This document shows positions 2,589-41,506 of a stretch of 51,308 bases of DNA, in pieces. The position numbers and the translations under genes are program-made. Origin of the DNA: Candidatus Gastranaerophilales bacterium (GTDB lineage Bacteria > Cyanobacteriota > Vampirovibrionia > Gastranaerophilales > Gastranaerophilaceae); NCBI GenBank assembly GCA_944324455.1, contig CALUWJ010000014.1, positions 1 through 51,308 on the forward strand. Reading direction: 5' to 3'. The first letter of the stretch is position 1. Each line of letters opens with the position of its first letter. The notes beneath the pieces are model-generated. The model had not been told where the DNA came from, searched no databases, and was given only the letters and a program-made list of their open reading frames with translations.

Positions 2589-2610
2589 AAGTTTTGCTTT
2601 AGCAAAACTT
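2589..2610. repeat. Solo palindrome AAGTTTTGCT-TT-AGCAAAACTT
   Basis: A perfect 10-bp inverted repeat with a 2-base loop in the gap between the exonuclease and the CMP-sugar synthetase gene. The same core (GTTTTGCT/AGCAAAAC) fills a module slot in repeat block R2 at 8563-8584. On the minus strand it is followed by TCAGGTTTT, so it may also act as a terminator for the synthetase transcript. Confidence 0.6.
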
Positions 2611-7114: not shown

Positions 7115-8386
7115 ATGATTGAAAGATATTCAAGAGAAGAAATTTCTCAAATTTGGGAATTGGATAAAAAATTTTCATATTATTTAGAAGTTGAACTTGC
7201 TGTTATTAAAGCGCAAGTTGAATTAGGTAATTTTAGCTCTGAAATATATGAAAACATTAAAAACACAGCAAAATTTGACGTTAAAAGAATTGATGAAATA
7301 GAAAAGATAACTCGTCATGATGTTATTGCTTTTTTAGAAAATGTTAATGAAAATGTTGATAGAAAATTTTCACCATATATTCATAAAGGCTTAACCAGTT
7401 CTGATGTTATTGATACTGCTTTTGCGCTTCAAATTAAAGATTCATCTAAAATTATCAACAAAGATTTAGATGAATTAATTGAAGTAGTGAAAAATCTTGC
7501 TTTTAAACATAAACATACGGTTTGCTTAGGAAGAAGCCATGGGATTGGGGCTGAAGTTATAACCTTTGGGTTTAAATTACTAAATTTATTAGATATGCTA
7601 AAAAGAGCAAAAGATAGATTTAACTATGCTCTTAATGATATTTTAGTAGGGCAGATTTCAGGGCCTTGCGGAACATATTCAAATATTGACCCAGAGGTTG
7701 AAGAAAAAACTTGTAAAATTTTAGGTTTAAAACCTGCTAAAATTTCAACCCAAGTTATAGCTAGAGATAGACATGCTGCTTATATTCAAGCGATTTCATT
7801 AATAGGGGCAGTAATTGAGAGTTTTTCTATTGAAATAAGACACTTACAACGCTTTGAAGTGGTTGAAGTTGAAGAAGGTTTTTCAAACGGACAAAAAGGC
7901 TCATCTGCTATGCCTCATAAGAAAAACCCAATTGCAAGCGAAAATCTTTCAGGTTTAGCAAGAGTTTTAAGAAGTAACACAATTTCAGCTATGGAAAATA
8001 TCGCCCTTTGGCATGAAAGAGATATTTCTCATTCATCAGTTGAGAGGATTATTTTCCCTGATAGCACCATTTTAATTGATTATATGCTTCATAGGTTTAA
8101 AGGAGTATTGGAAAATCTTGTTATAAAAGAAAAAAATATGATAAATAACATAGACAGATACGGCGGAATTATTTATTCTCAAAGCTGTTTATTAAAACTT
8201 TTAGATTATAATATGACCCGAGAAGAAGCCTATAAAATCGTTCAAAAAGAAGCTCTTGAAGCATTTAATAATAACGGCAGCTTTAAAGAAGCTATGAAAA
8301 AACATTTATCAGATGCTGACATTAATGAATGTTTTAATCAAGAAAAATATCTAAAAAATATTGATAAAATTTTTGACAGATTTTAA
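7115..8386 (+). CDS. purB: Adenylosuccinate lyase
   Basis: A 423-aa fumarase/aspartase-superfamily lyase that releases fumarate from SAICAR and adenylosuccinate in purine synthesis. The family signature SSAMPHKKNPI sits near residue 265; TSSDVIDTAFALQ and GRSHGIGAE carry the other active-site segments; the order and length match PurB. It is transcribed alone from a leaderless-type promoter. The downstream gap is repeat block R2. purH is also in the window (20066), but purB is not linked to it. Confidence 0.96.
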   Translation: MIERYSREEISQIWELDKKFSYYLEVELAVIKAQVELGNFSSEIYENIKNTAKFDVKRIDEIEKITRHDVIAFLENVNENVDRKFSPYIHKGLTSSDVIDTAFALQIKDSSKIINKDLDELIEVVKNLAFKHKHTVCLGRSHGIGAEVITFGFKLLNLLDMLKRAKDRFNYALNDILVGQISGPCGTYSNIDPEVEEKTCKILGLKPAKISTQVIARDRHAAYIQAISLIGAVIESFSIEIRHLQRFEVVEVEEGFSNGQKGSSAMPHKKNPIASENLSGLARVLRSNTISAMENIALWHERDISHSSVERIIFPDSTILIDYMLHRFKGVLENLVIKEKNMINNIDRYGGIIYSQSCLLKLLDYNMTREEAYKIVQKEALEAFNNNGSFKEAMKKHLSDADINECFNQEKYLKNIDKIFDRF

Positions 8387-8418
8387 ATTATCAAATTTAT
8401 TTTTTAAGTTCTAAAAGG

Positions 8419-9110
8419 TTTTTGCTCCTGTGGAAATCAAAGATTTCCACGTCGCTCATCAACAGTTTCAGCCTAAAAATGACAATGCTCCACGCATTGT
8501 CATTTTTTTAACGGCTTTCACTCTGGCTTACGCTTTTAAGCTTCAAAAGGTTTGCTCCTGAGGAGTTTTGCTAAAGCAAAACTCTTACGTCGCCGTAGTA
8601 CGGTATTCGCACTTGGCACGAGCTCCACGCTCCTGCCTGCGTGCTCCACACACTTCTGCCTTTTTCGCTTTCGCTAAGTCGAGTTTGGCTATCGCTTTTT
8701 TCTGGCTGTGGGTATCTCGACTCTGTTCGGCTAAAGACGCCTTACAGTCTCGATATCCTACGCACCCCAAGGGTGTTTCCAATCTCTAAGCTCACAAGTT
8801 CGCTAAGAGATTGTGGGCACCAGCTATCAATAGTTACGACCAAAATTCAACATTTTGGTCTTCACTCTGGCTTACGCTTTTTTGCTCCTGTGGAAATCAA
8901 AGATTTCCACGTCGCTCATCAACAGTTTCAGCCTAAAAATGACAATGCTCCACGCATTGTCATTTTTTTAACGGCTTTCACTCTGGCTTACGCTTTTAAG
9001 CTTCAAAAGGAGTACGGTATTCGCACTTGGCACGAGCTCCACGCTCCTGCCTGCGTGCTCCACACACTTCTGCCTTTTTCGCTTTCGCTAAGTCCGTCGG
9101 ACTATAGCTC
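8419..9110. repeat. Repeat block R2 (modular palindromes with long direct repeats)
   Basis: A GC-richer non-coding block filling the purB-lyase gap. A 130-bp segment occurs identically at 8421-8550 and 8881-9010, and an 84-bp segment at 8597-8680 and 9011-9094. Hairpins include 8430-8450 (GTGGAAATC/GATTTCCAC, loop AAA), 8475-8507 (14-bp stem, loop TCCAC; copy at 8935-8967), 8563-8584 (GAGTTTTGCT/AGCAAAACTC), 8620-8632 (GAGC/GCTC, loop TCCAC) and 8838-8860 (GACCAAAAT/ATTTTGGTC, loop TCAAC). A framework hairpin at 8781-8812 (AATCTCT/AGAGATT) matches one in R3 with different paired bases. Read on the minus strand the flanks match R1 and R3. Open frames crossing it are not supported as genes. Confidence 0.88.
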
Positions 9111-10361
9111 AAGCTTCAAAAGGTTTTCTACTACGCCCTTTAGGGCAATTTTAACATGAAAATAGCTCAATCCGCCTTGCATATATATTGCCCAAGGCTC
9201 TCTTGTGGGGCCGTCTGCTGATAGTTCAATAGTTGAACCTTCGATAAAACTTCCCCCTGCCATTAAAAGATTACAATCATACCCCGGAACCGTATCAGGG
9301 ATTGGTGTTAAATAACTTTCAACAGGTGAATACCTTTGCACCATAGCGCAAAATGCTTGTTGTTCTTTTTCGTTATTAAATTGAATAGTTTGGATGATAT
9401 CCGTTCTTTTTGTATTTGAAGATGGAAAAGTGATAAATCCCATATCTTCAAAGACTTTTGCCGCTAAAATTGCGCCTTTATGAGCATTTGAAGTAATAGA
9501 AGGCGCCATAAAAAACCCTTGAAGCATTATTCTTGTTTGATTATGCATAGCGCCGCCCTCAGCACCTATCCCAGGGGCAGTCAGTCTTCTTGCTGCCATA
9601 TCAACATATTTTTTCTTACCTGCAATATAACCGCCTGCCTCAACAATACCGCCGCCGGGGTTTTTAATTAAACTTCCTGCAATTAAATCAGCACCAACTT
9701 CAGTTGGTTCTTGTTTTTCTATAAATTCGCCATAGCAATTATCGACAAAACAGCATATTTCAGGATTTTTATTTTTGACAATTTTAATTATTTTCTCAAT
9801 ATCTGCTATACTCAAAGGTTTTCTTAAAGAATATCCTCTTGAGCGTTGAATTAAAACCATTTTTGTATCAGGCAAAAGATATTTTTCAATATTTTCATAA
9901 TCAACATCAAGCCCATCTTTTAAAGGAACTTCAGAATATTTTACCCCATGACCCATTAGGCTTGTGTCAAAATCATCGCAATTTTCTCTACATCCGATAA
10001 TTTGCTGCATTGTGTCATAAGGTTCACCTGCAATAGAAACAAGCCTATCACCGTGTCTTAAAACTCCAAAAAGAGCGCAAGCTATCGTGTGAGAGCCTGA
10101 AACAAAATGAGGTCTAACTATTGCAGCTTCTGTTTTAAAAGTATCAGCAAAAACTTTATCTAGGGCTTCTCTACCTATATCATCGTGCCCGTAACCGGTT
10201 ACTGTGTAGAAATGTTCTTCACCGATTTTATTATTATAAAATGCGTCTAAAACCTTTTTTTGATTGTATTCTGTTATTTCATCAATATATTCAAATATAT
10301 CTTTAATTGAATTGTGTGCTTTATCTACTATTTCATTTGCTTTTAATTTTAAATCTTCCAT
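9102..10361 (-). CDS. Methionine gamma-lyase family (YnbB-like, PLP-dependent) protein
   Basis: A 419-aa fold-type I PLP enzyme of the family also labelled 'aluminium resistance protein' and found in Firmicutes and Cyanobacteria. Family segments visible are VTGYGHDDIGREALDK, RPHFVSGSHTIACALFG, GEPYDTMQQIIG, CFVDNCYGEF with the PLP aspartate, and GSLIKNPGGG with the probable Schiff-base lysine. The substrate is probably a sulfur amino acid; this is family knowledge, not proven here. AAGGAA precedes the ATG and an extended -10 TGCTAGAAT (minus strand, 10387-10394) lies upstream. The last codons (LLKLEL, stop) are written in the AAGCTTCAAAAGG segment shared with repeat block R2. Confidence 0.88.
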   Translation of the reverse strand: MEDLKLKANEIVDKAHNSIKDIFEYIDEITEYNQKKVLDAFYNNKIGEEHFYTVTGYGHDDIGREALDKVFADTFKTEAAIVRPHFVSGSHTIACALFGVLRHGDRLVSIAGEPYDTMQQIIGCRENCDDFDTSLMGHGVKYSEVPLKDGLDVDYENIEKYLLPDTKMVLIQRSRGYSLRKPLSIADIEKIIKIVKNKNPEICCFVDNCYGEFIEKQEPTEVGADLIAGSLIKNPGGGIVEAGGYIAGKKKYVDMAARRLTAPGIGAEGGAMHNQTRIMLQGFFMAPSITSNAHKGAILAAKVFEDMGFITFPSSNTKRTDIIQTIQFNNEKEQQAFCAMVQRYSPVESYLTPIPDTVPGYDCNLLMAGGSFIEGSTIELSADGPTREPWAIYMQGGLSYFHVKIALKGVVENLLKLEL

Positions 10362-35847: not shown

Positions 35848-37689
35848 ATGAATATTCTTCTTATAGTAGGATTAGTATTATTTGCTTGCACAATCACATG
35901 GATATATGTGTTATTTGTTTCAAGCACCATAAATGATAATAAAAAAAAAGAAGTGCCTCAAGAAACACATGTTGATGATGCGCTTGAACGCTGCAAAAAA
36001 CTTTTTAATCAAGGATTGCATGCTGAATTACAAAGATATGCACAACGTGAATTATCTAAAAATTATGGCGATGTTGAATTAAGAAAAATTTTAGCTCAAT
36101 CTTTAATGTTATCAGGCAATGAACAAATGGCAATTATGCACTATGAGGCAATTTTATCCATTGCTCCTTATGATGTCAAAACGCAAGAATTATTAGCGCA
36201 ATATTATTGTGAAAATGGTCCAAAATCAAGAGCAATAGAACTTTATGAGCAAATTTTAATGTATGATGGCGGAAATGTCCACGCTGTTGAAACATTATCA
36301 AAATTATATGAAGAAACTCAAAACTACGAAAAAGCAATAGAAACCTATAAAATGCTTATAGACGCTGAAATTGACGAACAAAGAAAAATAGAACTTGAAT
36401 ATACTTTAGCAGATTTATATATTAAAATTGGCGATAATGAAAATGCATTTAATTCTTATGAAATAATTCATAAAAGCGACCCTGAAAATCTTGAAATAAT
36501 GATTGTTTTAGCTGATTTAGCTTATAAAAACAGCTATTGGCAAGATTGCCTAAAATATTATAAAAAAATTATTTCTATTGTTGGGGATGATTTTGAAATT
36601 TTGGAAAAAATTGCCCAAATTCAAGTTACACTCGAAAATTGGCCCGAGGCAGTAAGCGCATATAAGAAAATTATTTCTCTTGAAGATTCTGATAGCGTTA
36701 ATTATTTGTATCACCAAAATGAATTATGTAATGCTATGCTTAAAAACAAGCAATATGATGAAGCAATTGATTTATTAAAAGATTTATTGGCACAAAATCC
36801 TAAAGAAACATCTTTTGCTTTTACATTAGCTCAAGCATATACTATGATTGGTGAATTTAGGATAGGCGTTCAGTTATATAACAAACTTTTAGAAGATTTA
36901 CCACCTGAACAAAGTGAAATTATTATTAAATATATTTCTAATTTAATATGTGCATGGGCTCAAGATTTATTTAAAAAGGGTGATTACAACCAAGCATTTG
37001 ATAAATTTTTTGAAGCGCTTAAATATAATGAAGAAAATGATGAAGTTTATTTTGAGTTAGGCAGATGCAATTATCACATTAAAAGCTTCCAAGACGCTAT
37101 TGCACATTTTAAAAGAGCCATTGCAATTAAACCTCAAAATTCAATGTATTATTTTGGTTTAGGATGCGCCCAAGATGAACTGGGTAACATAAAAGCAGCA
37201 AAGCAAGCTTTTTATGACGCAATAAATATTGACCCTATGAATATAAAAGCAAGAATTGCTTATGCAATTTCTTTAACAAAAGAACTGGAATATGCTCAAA
37301 GTATAGAGCAATTTTCTGAAGTGTTAAAATATATTCCTGATAATGCAGATACTTTATATAATCTTGCGTTGGCTTATGAGCTTGTTGGAGATATTGAAAG
37401 AGCAATCAAATTCTACAAAAAAGCGATTGATGTTGATAATGAACACAAAGAAGCTAATCATAATATAGAGTTATTATTGGGTGAACCTTATTCACCACAT
37501 AAAAGCATTGAATATATTGATGATACACCCAAAACCGAAGAAAAAGTTGAAGAAAAAACTGAAGAAAAACAAGAAATAATTGATGTTCAAGAAGTGCCGG
37601 AACCTAGTGAAGAAACTATAATTGAAAATACAGAAATTCAACCCGAACAAGATACACAAATTAATCCTCAAGACAGCCTATTTAGCTAA
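35848..37689 (+). CDS. Membrane-anchored tetratricopeptide-repeat protein
   Basis: A 613-aa protein with one N-terminal membrane segment (residues 2-25, ILLIVGLVLFACTITWIYVL) and then about a dozen 34-residue TPR units from residue 45 to 545. Typical units are EVYFELGRCNYHIKSFQDAI and DTLYNLALAYELVGDIERAI. A Glu/Pro/Thr-rich disordered tail ends the protein. TPRs scaffold protein complexes, and the N-in anchor would place them in the cytoplasm or outside depending on topology; the role is unknown. Its stop lies 2-3 bases before repeat block R3. Confidence 0.85.
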   Translation: MNILLIVGLVLFACTITWIYVLFVSSTINDNKKKEVPQETHVDDALERCKKLFNQGLHAELQRYAQRELSKNYGDVELRKILAQSLMLSGNEQMAIMHYEAILSIAPYDVKTQELLAQYYCENGPKSRAIELYEQILMYDGGNVHAVETLSKLYEETQNYEKAIETYKMLIDAEIDEQRKIELEYTLADLYIKIGDNENAFNSYEIIHKSDPENLEIMIVLADLAYKNSYWQDCLKYYKKIISIVGDDFEILEKIAQIQVTLENWPEAVSAYKKIISLEDSDSVNYLYHQNELCNAMLKNKQYDEAIDLLKDLLAQNPKETSFAFTLAQAYTMIGEFRIGVQLYNKLLEDLPPEQSEIIIKYISNLICAWAQDLFKKGDYNQAFDKFFEALKYNEENDEVYFELGRCNYHIKSFQDAIAHFKRAIAIKPQNSMYYFGLGCAQDELGNIKAAKQAFYDAINIDPMNIKARIAYAISLTKELEYAQSIEQFSEVLKYIPDNADTLYNLALAYELVGDIERAIKFYKKAIDVDNEHKEANHNIELLLGEPYSPHKSIEYIDDTPKTEEKVEEKTEEKQEIIDVQEVPEPSEETIIENTEIQPEQDTQINPQDSLFS

Positions 37690-38970
37690 GGAAATGCACT
37701 AAAACCGTAGCGCGACTGCGCTAGGTTTTAGAAATGACCCCATAGGATGTGAGGGCGTGATGTCAAAACGTTGAGTTTTGACAGACAGCCCGACACTGGA
37801 CTCAAGGAAATGAAGTAATTTTCTTACAGCACTTGTGTGCTGTTGAAAATTACGAATGACCCCATGGTGTGTGAGCTCGTGACGGCAGTCCGTTGAGGAC
37901 TGGCGGACAGAGCGAAACCGTACCTTGGCGACGTGGGACGAAGTCCCTCAGGAGCTAAGGAAATGAAGTAAAACCGTAGCGCGACTGCGCTAGGTTTTAG
38001 AAATGACCCCATAGGATGTGAGCAATTGCACAGCAAGCGTGGAGCTTGGTAGGCTATTGCGATGCCCACAATCCGTTAGCGAACTTGTGAGCTTTACGGA
38101 TTGGAAACACCCTTGGGGTGCGCGGGACAAAGTCCCTCAGGAGCAATGGAAATGAAGTAATTTTCTTACAGCACTTGTGTGCTGTTGAAAATTACGAATG
38201 ACCCCATAGGATGTGAGGGCGTGATGTCAAAACGTTGAGTTTTGACAGACAGCCCGACACTGGACTCAAGGAAATGCACTAAAACCGTAGCGCGACTGCG
38301 CTAGGTTTTAGAAATGACCCCATAGGATGTGAGGGCGTGACGGCATTTCAAACATCTTTTGCTTTTAAGTAATTGTTCACTTTTCTTCTTTTTTCTCTCA
38401 AACGGCGAAATGAAAAAGAGGGCGCTAGCCGATGTTCCCAAGTGGCTTGCGTTGAGCAAGACACTGGAACATTACAATAGCGACGTTTCAAATTCTTGCC
38501 GTAAGGCGAATTTGACAGGAGCAAAAGAAAAGTGAACCGAAAAGAAGAAAACTTCCGCCTGCCTCATAATTATTGGGCTTACGCCCAAATTATACATATT
38601 TTCTTTAGTAAAACTTAATAGATAACAAATATTTATAGCACGACTGCGCTAGGTTTTAGAAATGACCCCATAGGATGTGAGCAATTGCACAGCAAGCGTG
38701 GAGCTTGGTGGGCTATTGCGATGCCCACAATCCGTTAGCGAACTTGTGAGCTTTACGGATTGGAAACACCCTTGGGGTGCGCGGGACAAAGTCCCTCAGG
38801 AGCAATGGAAATGAAGTAATTTTCTTACAGCACTTGTGTGCTGTTGAAAATTACGAATGACCCCATAGGATGTGAGGGCGTGATGTCAAAACGTTGAGTT
38901 TTGACAGACAGCCCGACACTGGACTCAAGGAAATGAAGTAATTTTCTTACAGCACTTGTGTGCTGTTGAA
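37690..38970. repeat. Repeat block R3 (array of modular palindromic units)
   Basis: Units begin GGAAATG at 37690, 37806, 37959, 38148, 38270, 38807 and 38929. Each continues with one of two palindromes (CTAAAACC...GGTTTTAG, e.g. 37699-37731; or GTAATTTTC...GAAAATTAC, e.g. 37815-37853), then ACCCCATAGGATGTGAG, then a body of one of three kinds. Bodies hold hairpins with constant loop GTTGA or GTGGA and a GGGAC/GTCCC hairpin ending CTCAGGAGC. A 300-bp stretch (37977-38276) recurs at 38636-38935 with two differences that I can see. The array is interrupted by a different insert at about 38341-38635. GC is higher than in the flanks and I see no supported gene. Confidence 0.9.
38375..38537. mobile_element. 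MITE-like insert inside repeat block R3
   Basis: GTTCACTTTTCT (38375-38386) and its exact complement AGAAAAGTGAAC (38526-38537) bracket about 163 bases. Inside are two framework hairpins: AGTGGCTTGC/GCAAGACACT with loop GTTGA (38441-38465), also found in R1, and CAAATTC...GAATTTG (38489-38514) between GCGACGT and ACAGGAGC. No transposase is encoded and I could not define target-site duplications. Confidence 0.5.
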
Positions 38971-40083
38971 TTTAAAATTCAAAACTTTTTTCGCAATTTC
39001 ATTTAAATTGCAATTTTCATCATAAAAACCCCAATCGGAAAGAATTTGATTTTGTAATTTTTCAGTCTCAAGAGCCAATCTTGGATATTCTGCATTTAAT
39101 TTATCAAAAAGTTTATTTACGTAAGCCATTTTTTTTAAAGTAAAGCCTGTCTTTTTTAAGCTTAAAACTTTTTTAATATGGGGAAAATTCTTTAATATTT
39201 CCGATTTATCTTCCATCTCCTTTATACATTTTGCATACGCAATTTTTCTTGCTGTTAAAGTAATTTGTTGTTTTAATTGATTTTTAATATATTGTTGTCG
39301 GCTTTCACTTATGGTTTGAAAACGCTTATCTCTAGCTTTTTGTGACCGCATATTTTTAACAAGCCTTTCCCTAAATTCCTCATCTTGCCACTTTTCAAGC
39401 ATAACTTTTGAACGTTGCTTCCTAAAATCAGAAACATTCATGCTATTTACAGTTTTTGTTCTATATTCTTCATTTTGCCATATTTCTTTGCGTGCTTTAG
39501 ACATTCTGTTTTTTGTAATTAAAGATTCATAATCATCATTCATAGAAATATTTAAAAATTTAAACATTTTTTTAATAGTTTGATAACTTAAATAAAAATA
39601 ATCTTCATTGCAACCGCTTTTAAGAGGAGTCAATTCACCGATATATTTTTTTAAAAACACTAAAGAAGCATTTTCTTTATTTAAACCCTCTATTTGACCT
39701 TTTGCAATTTGTTTTGGAGCATAAAAACTAATAGAAGATAAATCAACATCTTTTAAATCAACAACATCTCTAAATTCAGGATATAGTTCTTTTGCTTCAT
39801 CTAGAGTTTTACAGTTTAATAAAGAAGCATAATATTCTTTATGTAAATCAATAAGATTATTTTTATCATCAATATAAGATAAAATATATTCTCTTAAACC
39901 ATCTGATAAAAAAGCGTCTTTTTCTAAATCTTTTACTTGTTGAACTAAAGATTTACCGCTAAAAGAAATAGTATCAGATGATAAATTATATTGATATTTA
40001 ATAGGACTAATTGTTTGATTATTTTGATTTTTATTGATATTTTGGGGTTTTAAAAAATTAATTTGTCTAAATTGGAGTTTCAT
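38947..40083 (-). CDS. RWQD-repeat protein, copy 2 (unknown function)
   Basis: A 378-aa basic protein, paralogue of the gene just upstream. The N-terminal ~190 residues (start MKLQFRQINFLKPQNI; NLSSDTISFSGKS; CKTLDEAKELYPEFRDVV) are nearly identical between the two. The middle holds divergent repeats (KEIWQNEEYRTKTVNSMN, LEKWQDEEFRERLVKNMR) resembling the short helical DNA-binding repeats of homing-endonuclease tails (NUMOD-like); no HNH or GIY-YIG catalytic motif is seen. The end has ILSDWGFYDENCN, shared by both. The last six codons (NSTQVL, stop) are inside a palindrome of repeat block R3. The ATG lies 4 bases after the upstream stop. Confidence 0.7.
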   Translation of the reverse strand: MKLQFRQINFLKPQNINKNQNNQTISPIKYQYNLSSDTISFSGKSLVQQVKDLEKDAFLSDGLREYILSYIDDKNNLIDLHKEYYASLLNCKTLDEAKELYPEFRDVVDLKDVDLSSISFYAPKQIAKGQIEGLNKENASLVFLKKYIGELTPLKSGCNEDYFYLSYQTIKKMFKFLNISMNDDYESLITKNRMSKARKEIWQNEEYRTKTVNSMNVSDFRKQRSKVMLEKWQDEEFRERLVKNMRSQKARDKRFQTISESRQQYIKNQLKQQITLTARKIAYAKCIKEMEDKSEILKNFPHIKKVLSLKKTGFTLKKMAYVNKLFDKLNAEYPRLALETEKLQNQILSDWGFYDENCNLNEIAKKVLNFKFNSTQVL

Positions 40084-40087
40084 ATAA

Positions 40088-41347
40088 TTACTTTCTGTTA
40101 TTTTTGTTATCAGGGTCTAATTTTTGAGCTTGCTCTACTAATTTTTCAAAATTAGTATCTTCATCATAAAAACCCCAATCAGATAAAATTTGACTTTGTA
40201 TTTCTTTAACTTTCTGAATTTCTTCCGGATACTTTTGGCTCATTTCTTCAAGACACATATTTACATATCTTATTTTATTATAAGTTAAGCCTAATTTTGT
40301 TTTAGAAATAATATCTTTAAATCGAGAATCTGTTTCTAGAGTTTCTTGATATATTTGTTGAGTTTCAGGACTTTGATTAAAAGCAAGCTTTGTTGCAATT
40401 ATTTTGATATTTTCTTGTATTACCTTAATTCGTTTTTCCGAACTATTTGTAGCATGCTTAGCTTTTGTTTCTGGTGAATTAAGGCTTTTTAGAGTTTTTT
40501 CTCTAAATTCTTTATCCTGCCATCTTGCTTTAATAGCTTCAGATTGTCTTAATCTCATTTCACCATCTTGCCATCTTGCTTTAGCAGCTTCAGATTGTCT
40601 AGCTTTTATTTCAGGTGAATTCATACTATTAATAGTTTTTTCTCTAAATTCCTCATCTTGCCATCTTGCTTTAGCAGCTTCTGACAGCTTAGCTTTTGTT
40701 TCTGGTGAATTAAGGCTTTTTAGAGTTTTTTCTCTAAATTCTTTATCCTGCCATCTTGCTTTAGCAGCTTCAGACTTTCTGTTTTTTGTAATTAAAGATT
40801 CATAATCATCATTCATAGAAATATTTAAAAACTTAAGTATTTTTTTAATAGTAGAATTATTCAAATGAAAATAGTCTTCATTACCTATATTGTTAAGTGG
40901 TATTAATTCTCCAATATATTTTTTTAAAAACACTAAAGAAGCATTTTCTTTATTCAAACCCTCTATTTGACCTTTTGCAATTTGTTTTGGAGCATAAAAA
41001 CTAATAGAAGATAAATCAACATCTTTTAAATCAACAACATCTCTAAATTCAGGATATAGTTCTTTTGCTTCATCTAGAGTTTTACAGTTTAATAAAGAAG
41101 CATAATATTCTTTATGTAAATCAATAAGATTATTTTTATCATCAATATAAGATAAAATATATTCTCTTAAACCATCTGATAAAAAAGCGTCTTTTTCTAA
41201 ATCTTTTACTTGTTGAACTAAAGATTTACCGCTAAAAGAAATAGTATCAGATGATAAATTATATTGATATTTAATAGGGTTAGTTGTTTTAGTGTTTTTA
41301 ATATTTTGAGGTTTTAAAAAATTAATTTGTCTAAATTGGAGTTTCAT
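40088..41347 (-). CDS. RWQD-repeat protein, copy 1 (unknown function)
   Basis: A 419-aa basic protein. After the shared N-terminal domain it carries four tandem ~30-residue repeats beginning SEAAKARWQDKEFREKTLK (about residues 190-295; the third is shortened to 17 residues), then a helical tail ending ILSDWGFYDEDTN. The repeat looks like a NUMOD-type DNA-binding motif, but that is inference, and no nuclease motif is visible. I start it at ATG 41347, with AAAGGT upstream; 12 more in-frame residues reach 41383. Its end also supplies the ribosome site for copy 2. Confidence 0.72.
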   Translation of the reverse strand: MKLQFRQINFLKPQNIKNTKTTNPIKYQYNLSSDTISFSGKSLVQQVKDLEKDAFLSDGLREYILSYIDDKNNLIDLHKEYYASLLNCKTLDEAKELYPEFRDVVDLKDVDLSSISFYAPKQIAKGQIEGLNKENASLVFLKKYIGELIPLNNIGNEDYFHLNNSTIKKILKFLNISMNDDYESLITKNRKSEAAKARWQDKEFREKTLKSLNSPETKAKLSEAAKARWQDEEFREKTINSMNSPEIKARQSEAAKARWQDGEMRLRQSEAIKARWQDKEFREKTLKSLNSPETKAKHATNSSEKRIKVIQENIKIIATKLAFNQSPETQQIYQETLETDSRFKDIISKTKLGLTYNKIRYVNMCLEEMSQKYPEEIQKVKEIQSQILSDWGFYDEDTNFEKLVEQAQKLDPDNKNNRK

Positions 41348-41506
41348 ATAATTACCTTTCATAACTAATTTATTAACACTCATAAAAAAAATAATTTGCC
41401 ATAATTCTTTTAAACAAATTTTACAATAACCAATATTTTAGGCTTTTTTAGTTGATTTTTAAAAATATCTTTTGTTATAATTTCGATATAGAACGATGGA
41501 TTTTAT

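Follow-up and report, generated by a model that had tools for sequence, protein, structure and literature searches.

Conserved joints and interchangeable hairpin stems in a short gene-less repeat unit of Gastranaerophilales

A short repeat unit without genes folds into two or three hairpin arms, and the last of these, arm C, is the slot framed by GCGACGT and CAGGAGC in which many different palindromes occur. The words that stay constant in this unit are its joints, and its stems are free to vary provided that both sides vary. We found the unit in a 51,308-nt contig of a Candidatus Gastranaerophilales bacterium (hereafter the window), and it is probably a lineage-restricted, non-autonomous mosaic repeat of one genus, probably of gut bacteria, in which selection acts on the folding of a single strand and parts are reshuffled from copy to copy, with the joints kept while the stems are swapped.

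Five GCGACGT...CAGGAGC slots were detected in the window, and the palindromes named in an initial annotation of this DNA were all recovered in place. GCGACGT matched 6 times where 0.38 matches were expected and CAGGAGC 11 times where 1.74 were expected, counts that no shuffle reached. The joined pattern GCGACGT-N-CAGGAGC was found at 14 places in the 1.76 Mb genome, and 295 matches of GCGACGT...CAGGAGC were obtained from 26 of 28 congeneric species. The reversed pattern was found neither in this genome nor in any of the 28 species, and this control rules out a chance origin.

Cargo statistics were taken from 131 copies, out of the slot matches, for which the surroundings were fetched. These copies held 77 different cargos in about eight classes, running from GGGAC-GAA-GTCCC to a branched insert of 51–59 nt (AGGATAATCGAGGC..GCCGAGATACCCA), which bears out the original reading of a single slot with many palindromes. 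Amongst the 77 distinct cargos the mean paired fraction was 0.68, compared with 0.28 after shuffling, and 75 folded below -2 kcal/mol. Arm-C stems are between about 5 and more than 11 bp long and most loops have 3–4 nt; several classes are present per genome, and within one cargo class the differences between stems are paired changes. C-GNA-G triloops and GNRA tetraloops are common in arm C. Triloops of this kind are very stable in DNA, and GNRA tetraloops in RNA, so these loops cannot tell DNA from RNA.

The complete unit is about 100 bp long as B+C and 150–190 bp long as A+B+C, with arms A, B and C in fixed order. Arm A begins many units (for example, GGGAATGATGTAA..TTACGAATGACCC and CCTTTTGAAG..GCGAAAAAGG) and is missing or minimal in many others, some of which carry only a mini-hairpin such as GCGTAAGC in its place. 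In arm B the outer and inner stems are separated by the constant GTGA/GACA internal loop, and the inner stem is capped by an apical loop that is likewise constant (C-GNNGA-G), being GTTGA in 71 of the 117 C-G-closed loops; the foot of the arm is a constant joint, GTGTGA../..GAAACCGTAC. About 70 different sequences of arm B were obtained. Within arm C, the joint GCGACGT/CAGGAGC is made up of GC/GC, a tandem G.A motif, C-G, a bulged A and GT/AC. The slot flanks had been described as constant; their words are indeed over-represented, but other copies have CCGCCGT..CAGGCGG, GCCATCGT..CAGATGGC or GCCGTCGT..CAGACGGC in the same position, and the flank covaries, CCGCC/GGCGG standing in place of GCGAC/GGAGC. 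As the joint itself is replaceable, flank and cargo form one structure. The features of the window are listed in the table. Two pairs of repeats in island A are 100% identical, D8 (8419–8550 and 8879–9010) and D10 (8597–8680 and 9011–9094).

Table. Repeat units and related features of the window.
Feature	Position	Strand	Context or evidence
Island A, mosaic of units	8419..9140	-	between convergent purB (7115-8386) and PLP-enzyme-like gene (9102-10361)
Arm B AATGACAATGC-GTGGA-GCATTGTCATT + arm C	8424..8523	-	cmsearch R1 53.2 bits; fold z -6.6
Arm C of the 8424..8523 unit, GTGGAAATC-TTT-GATTTCCAC	slot 8424-8455	-	
Arm B GGCAGGAGC-GTGGA-GCTCGTGCC + arm C	8554..8651	-	cmsearch R1 44.2 bits; fold z -4.1
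Arm C of the 8554..8651 unit, GAGTTTTGCT..AGCAAAACTC	slot 8554-8593	-	
Arm C + short linkers, precise indel	8551..8596	-	absent from otherwise identical copy 8879-9094
Repeat of the 8424-8523 unit, with its slot at 8884-8915	8884..8983	-	repeat; cmsearch R1
Unit close to contig end	198..289	-	cmsearch R1 47.2 bits
Island B, tandem/nested array behind TPR-protein gene (35848-37689)	37688..38970	+	
Arm A, tandem register, GGAAATGCAC-TAAAACC..GGTTTTA-GAAATGACCCC	37688..37765	+	directly after TPR stop; family D6
Unit, arm B GGGC-GTGA-TGTCAAAAC-GTTGA-GTTTTGACA-GACA-GCCC	37747..37830	+	cmsearch R1 66 bits
Complete arm B+C unit, slot 37928-37955, GGGAC-GAA-GTCCC	37869..37955	+	cmsearch R1 100.1 bits; in seed
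Unit, part of arm B	38211..38286	+	cmsearch R1 65.1 bits
Unit GGGCGCTAGCCGATGTTCCC..CAGGAGC, slot 38480-38522, within ~300 bp repeat	38417..38526	+	cmsearch R1; filled/empty pair
Unit, arm B	38870..38953	+	cmsearch R1 66 bits
Hairpin AAGTTTTGCTTTAGCAAAACTT on its own, no slot flanks, not a unit	2589..2610	.	

The exchange of palindromes at one locus, originally put forward as a check between strains, was followed across congeneric species at the 3' end of groEL, a locus common to 26 congeners, and was borne out there. In many of them units lie directly behind the groEL stop codon, and three loci are empty (L249, L250 and L254). The slots hold unrelated palindromes beside near-identical A and B arms, which are ~92–94% identical between neighbouring species. 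To the left of the slot, 111 of 118 aligned positions were identical in one pair (L256/L259) with the cargos GGAAATCTTTGATTTCCT and TTCAAATTCTTGCCGTAGGCGAATTTGA, and 114 of 124 in another (L253/L252) with the cargos GGGACTGAAAGTCCCT and GAAAATCTTTGATTTTCT. Some of these swaps could reflect the loss and gain of whole units at a hot spot; as the A and B arms are shared, an exchange of arm C is favoured over whole-unit turnover. The further proposal, that the cargo is independently mobile in a constant frame, was not supported: frame and cargo are one folded arm, arms A and B vary likewise, the outer flank covaries, and compensating base-pair changes account for much of the diversity inside a class.

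A covariance model was built from a seed of 13 natural units, in which 92% of the cells were paired and the covariation score was 0.50, compared with 0.18 in shuffled alignments. In the alignment of 109 matches from 60 sources, 93% of the cells were paired, a percentage that weighs less than the sliding and shuffle controls given that this alignment was fitted to the model. Cells changed on both sides numbered 583 versus 149 in shuffles of the 109 matches, covariation was found in all of the 22 modelled pairs, including the GC pairs of the slot flank, and the score fell to 0.10 or less when the partner was shifted by 1–3 columns. Mismatches in the arm-B stems were strand-specific, with 85 purine-purine versus 6 pyrimidine-pyrimidine and 21 G.T versus 3 A.C, so that the fold of one particular strand is what counts; RNA and single-stranded DNA both fit. 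The excess of G.T over A.C is suggestive as a test for an RNA strand and hinges on a special position, most of it coming from a single non-canonical position and the counts elsewhere being 5 versus 2, which is not significant.

Units occur in tandem and in nested, truncated arrays, mostly at gene 3' ends. When the five closest species were compared, island B was common only to one (G022), where the unit at ~38417–38526 is missing from the same place (L216 vs L220). This filled/empty pair is defined to about ±10 bp and contains no target duplication beyond 1–2 bp. In 87 of 148 units the sequence before the unit is repeated after CAGGAGC with an identity of at least 12 of 14, versus 14% for mismatched loci, and the match of a unit to its own locus was strictly the best in only 9 of the 148. 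At groEL the flank repeat comprises the tail ATGGGAATGATGTAA and at another locus (L303) about 44 bp of promoter region. Three units (L311, L276 and L014) adjoin a tRNA-Leu gene at its 5' end, and a stretch of about 35 bp that contains the first 9 nt of the tRNA recurs on the far side of the unit. In three further cases (L010, L316 and L318) the repeat takes in part of arm B, as in a tandem array of 1.3–1.8 copies. A target-site duplication of fixed length was not upheld, being absent from the clean filled/empty pair, with flank repeats of very different lengths elsewhere; these repeats could stem either from insertions that duplicated the target or from tandem duplications that came later.

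An order-wide search gave matches in 88 of 241 genomes, with none in the congener G010 and few in G011, and a search of the phylum with a stricter cut-off gave matches in 49 of 386, all from the same order and 48 from the same family. Many other genera had exactly one match each. A weak match in a record labelled Candidatus Melainabacteria (L152) was confirmed by the model and, with the gene content, points to Gastranaerophilales/Vampirovibrionia; the other matches of that scan of genome contigs were mostly judged to be chance, in GC-rich genomes. Among the strongest of these single matches, units lie, according to ARAGORN, at the 3' end of tmRNA in four cases (L353, L354, L356 and L358), a few hundred bases downstream of tmRNA in two (L357 and L369), and at the 3' end of tRNA-Leu in two (L355 and L370). 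In several of them the end of the host gene itself is copied after the unit, as ATCTCCA for tmRNA (L353) and ATGCCCA for tRNA-Leu (L370). The units behind tmRNA or tRNA-Leu in other genera are often single and near-identical, and the near-identity behind ssrA in several genera could reflect constraint, not mobility. The 3' flanks of ssrA also hold further gene-less structured elements of about 90–190 bp, of at least three types and in tandem, many of which close with a copy of the tmRNA 3' end that matches the host (examples are L498, L507, L511, L527, L535, L546, L555 and L572).

In the mechanism that we propose for a mosaic repeat, a trans-acting enzyme or complex would recognise the folded strand, as RNA or as single-stranded DNA, and would copy or insert units at gene ends, for example those of ssrA, tRNA-Leu and groEL. 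Arms would pass between copies through homologous recombination or template switching, compensatory changes would then refine them, and the elements, mainly selfish, would end up within 3' untranslated regions. A more far-reaching version, in which whole helices are exchanged as modules, the heritable identity is the fold, a copy of the 3' end of the target gene (tmRNA, tRNA or groEL) is taken into an arm or boundary and a structure-reading enzyme moves the unit, is conceivable, though we would not expect it to hold. No mobilising enzyme was identified, and this counts against the reading as a mobile repeat. The RAYT/Y1 transposase (PF01797) was rejected as the mobiliser, being present in 1 of 27 congeners and absent from this genome (G000), as was a reverse transcriptase, which was found in 12 of 27 genomes, including one (G010) that has no units.

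The main rival is a function as host RNA, with the units being conserved 3'-UTR structures for protection of the mRNA 3' end, processing or attenuation, selected by the host and dispersed only incidentally. Covariation on one strand, the preference for convergent regions and for upstream genes in the same orientation, and the units immediately after tmRNA, tRNA-Leu and the groEL stop would all agree with this explanation. The upstream gene was co-oriented with the island in 36 of 52 cases (p = 0.008), and because of this preference many islands may be transcribed as 3' ends. However, at any one locus the units are not conserved from species to species, as shown by the empty groEL loci, by the island behind the TPR gene being common only to G022 and by ssrA often being without a unit; the arrays are nested and truncated; and CAGGAGC is not followed by a U-tract of terminator type. 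We therefore regard this explanation as unlikely. Rfam covariance models gave no match at the gathering score in the window, and five loci that were searched by E-value yielded sub-threshold hits only.

An origin as mini-integrative elements, inserted by an ssrA/tRNA-specific recombinase acting in trans, with the copied gene end as attR and accretion producing tandem arrays, would account for the gene-less elements behind ssrA, many of which are followed by the host-matched last 14 nt of tmRNA, and has a parallel in the ssrA islands of Dehalococcoides with their 20-bp direct repeats in tandem (PMC3146451). Against it stand hundreds of copies away from tRNA or ssrA, a flank repeat that varies in length and at times includes part of arm B, and the lack of a core site shared across loci. 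Moreover, no relative of the unit was found in the phages, plasmids and viral contigs searched, and this origin thus seems distinctly improbable. The matches listed in a looser viral scan were judged to be chance.

The arms might instead be immobile, with palindromes arising in place by mutation, through hairpin-templated correction, and recombination acting between neighbouring units only. Stepwise compensations within a class, such as GGGAC/GTCCC, GCGAC/GTCGC and GGAAC/GTTCC, would be expected from such a process, but the classes differ in length and architecture with little intermediate sequence and the same class sequences recur across species and loci, which makes it very improbable. That the units are REP/REPIN elements moved by a resident RAYT transposase is hardly credible despite their being small intergenic hairpins near gene 3' ends whose foot carries a CGTC tag when the complementary strand is read, given the distribution of PF01797, the variable stem sequence and a unit that is not an inverted doublet.

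Among known kinds, REPINs, CGTC-tagged REPs and BOX elements come closest and work in a similar way, but membership in the first two fails on the tested features. The units resemble REP/REPIN elements (PMC3116915) in being short, extragenic, hairpin-forming and non-autonomous and in forming mosaic clusters, and compensatory hairpin changes have been reported for GTAG REPs with RAYT (PMC3116915). They differ in that the joints and not the stems are conserved, in that arms are replaced as wholes, in the lack of RAYT from 26 of the 27 genomes, in having two or three unlike arms whose order is fixed, and in standing head to tail, whereas a REPIN is an inverted pair of conserved REPs around a hairpin spacer. 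With CGTC-tagged REPs (PMC3733652) they share the preference for sites downstream of genes and the lack of a dedicated transposase. The CGTC tag itself follows from the construction of the pattern, GCGACGT being ACGTCGC on the complementary strand, and is only partly unpaired. CGTC REPs have stems of 8–9 bp, loops of 4–5 nt and a family-wide stem consensus (PMC3733652), unlike the wider range of stem lengths, the shorter loops and the eight classes found here.

BOX elements of Streptococcus pneumoniae are built from modules A-B-C, are folded if transcribed and have a middle module that is present or multiplied (PMC3049150). Compared on modular order alone, they share with our units ordered A-B-C modules, clusters and nested insertions; BOX modules, however, keep their sequence where module stems are interchangeable here, and BOX has terminal inverted repeats, none of which were seen by eye in the unit of the filled/empty pair. 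MITEs are likewise bounded by terminal inverted repeats, and they differ by a short target-site duplication of fixed length, which the units do not have. The ssrA islands of Dehalococcoides stand in tandem behind ssrA, and the 3' end of that gene is copied where each island ends (PMC3146451); such a copy at the distal boundary is shared by the ssrA-located units only. Those islands carry an integrase module and many genes, whereas our units are gene-less and shorter than 200 bp, and most copies in the studied genus are located elsewhere than at ssrA.

Small bacterial repeats are usually defined and searched for by conserved sequence, and because joints are conserved and stems interchangeable here, sequence-based repeat finders would miss or split such elements. 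The stem replacements at one locus are natural experiments on what a folded strand requires, and they make copying via RNA or single-stranded DNA testable for palindromic repeats. The gene-less structured elements behind ssrA in this family offer a defined place in which to seek the enzyme.

Several further observations concern the surroundings of the units in the window. The purB and PLP-enzyme genes that flank 8386–9140 are far apart or on separate contigs in related species, so that island A may mark a rearrangement junction. At 37650–37700, where element and TPR gene meet, the protein ends in SLFS, and in relatives without the element it ends in SMFS; the element may have rewritten the end of this gene. 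Two neighbouring reverse-strand ORFs at 38947–41383 have long repeats in common (families D2, D3, D11 and D13) and are apparently paralogous repeat proteins; the first of them had no NCBIfam match.

A dispersed repeat of ~300 bp (..GCCTCATAATTATTGGGC..GCCCAA..) at 38345–38650 interrupts arm B of a unit and recurs at other loci (L329, L330, L591–L594 and L220). The palindrome at 2589–2610 had been noted as occurring alone; there is indeed no slot there, and its 18-nt core recurs in this genome as the terminal hairpin of a ~300 bp dispersed repeat that is distinct from the unit. Other copies of the repeat at 38345–38650 end in the hairpin AGTTTTGCTTTAGCAAAACA, which is the palindrome of one slot class and was seen in this clade only.
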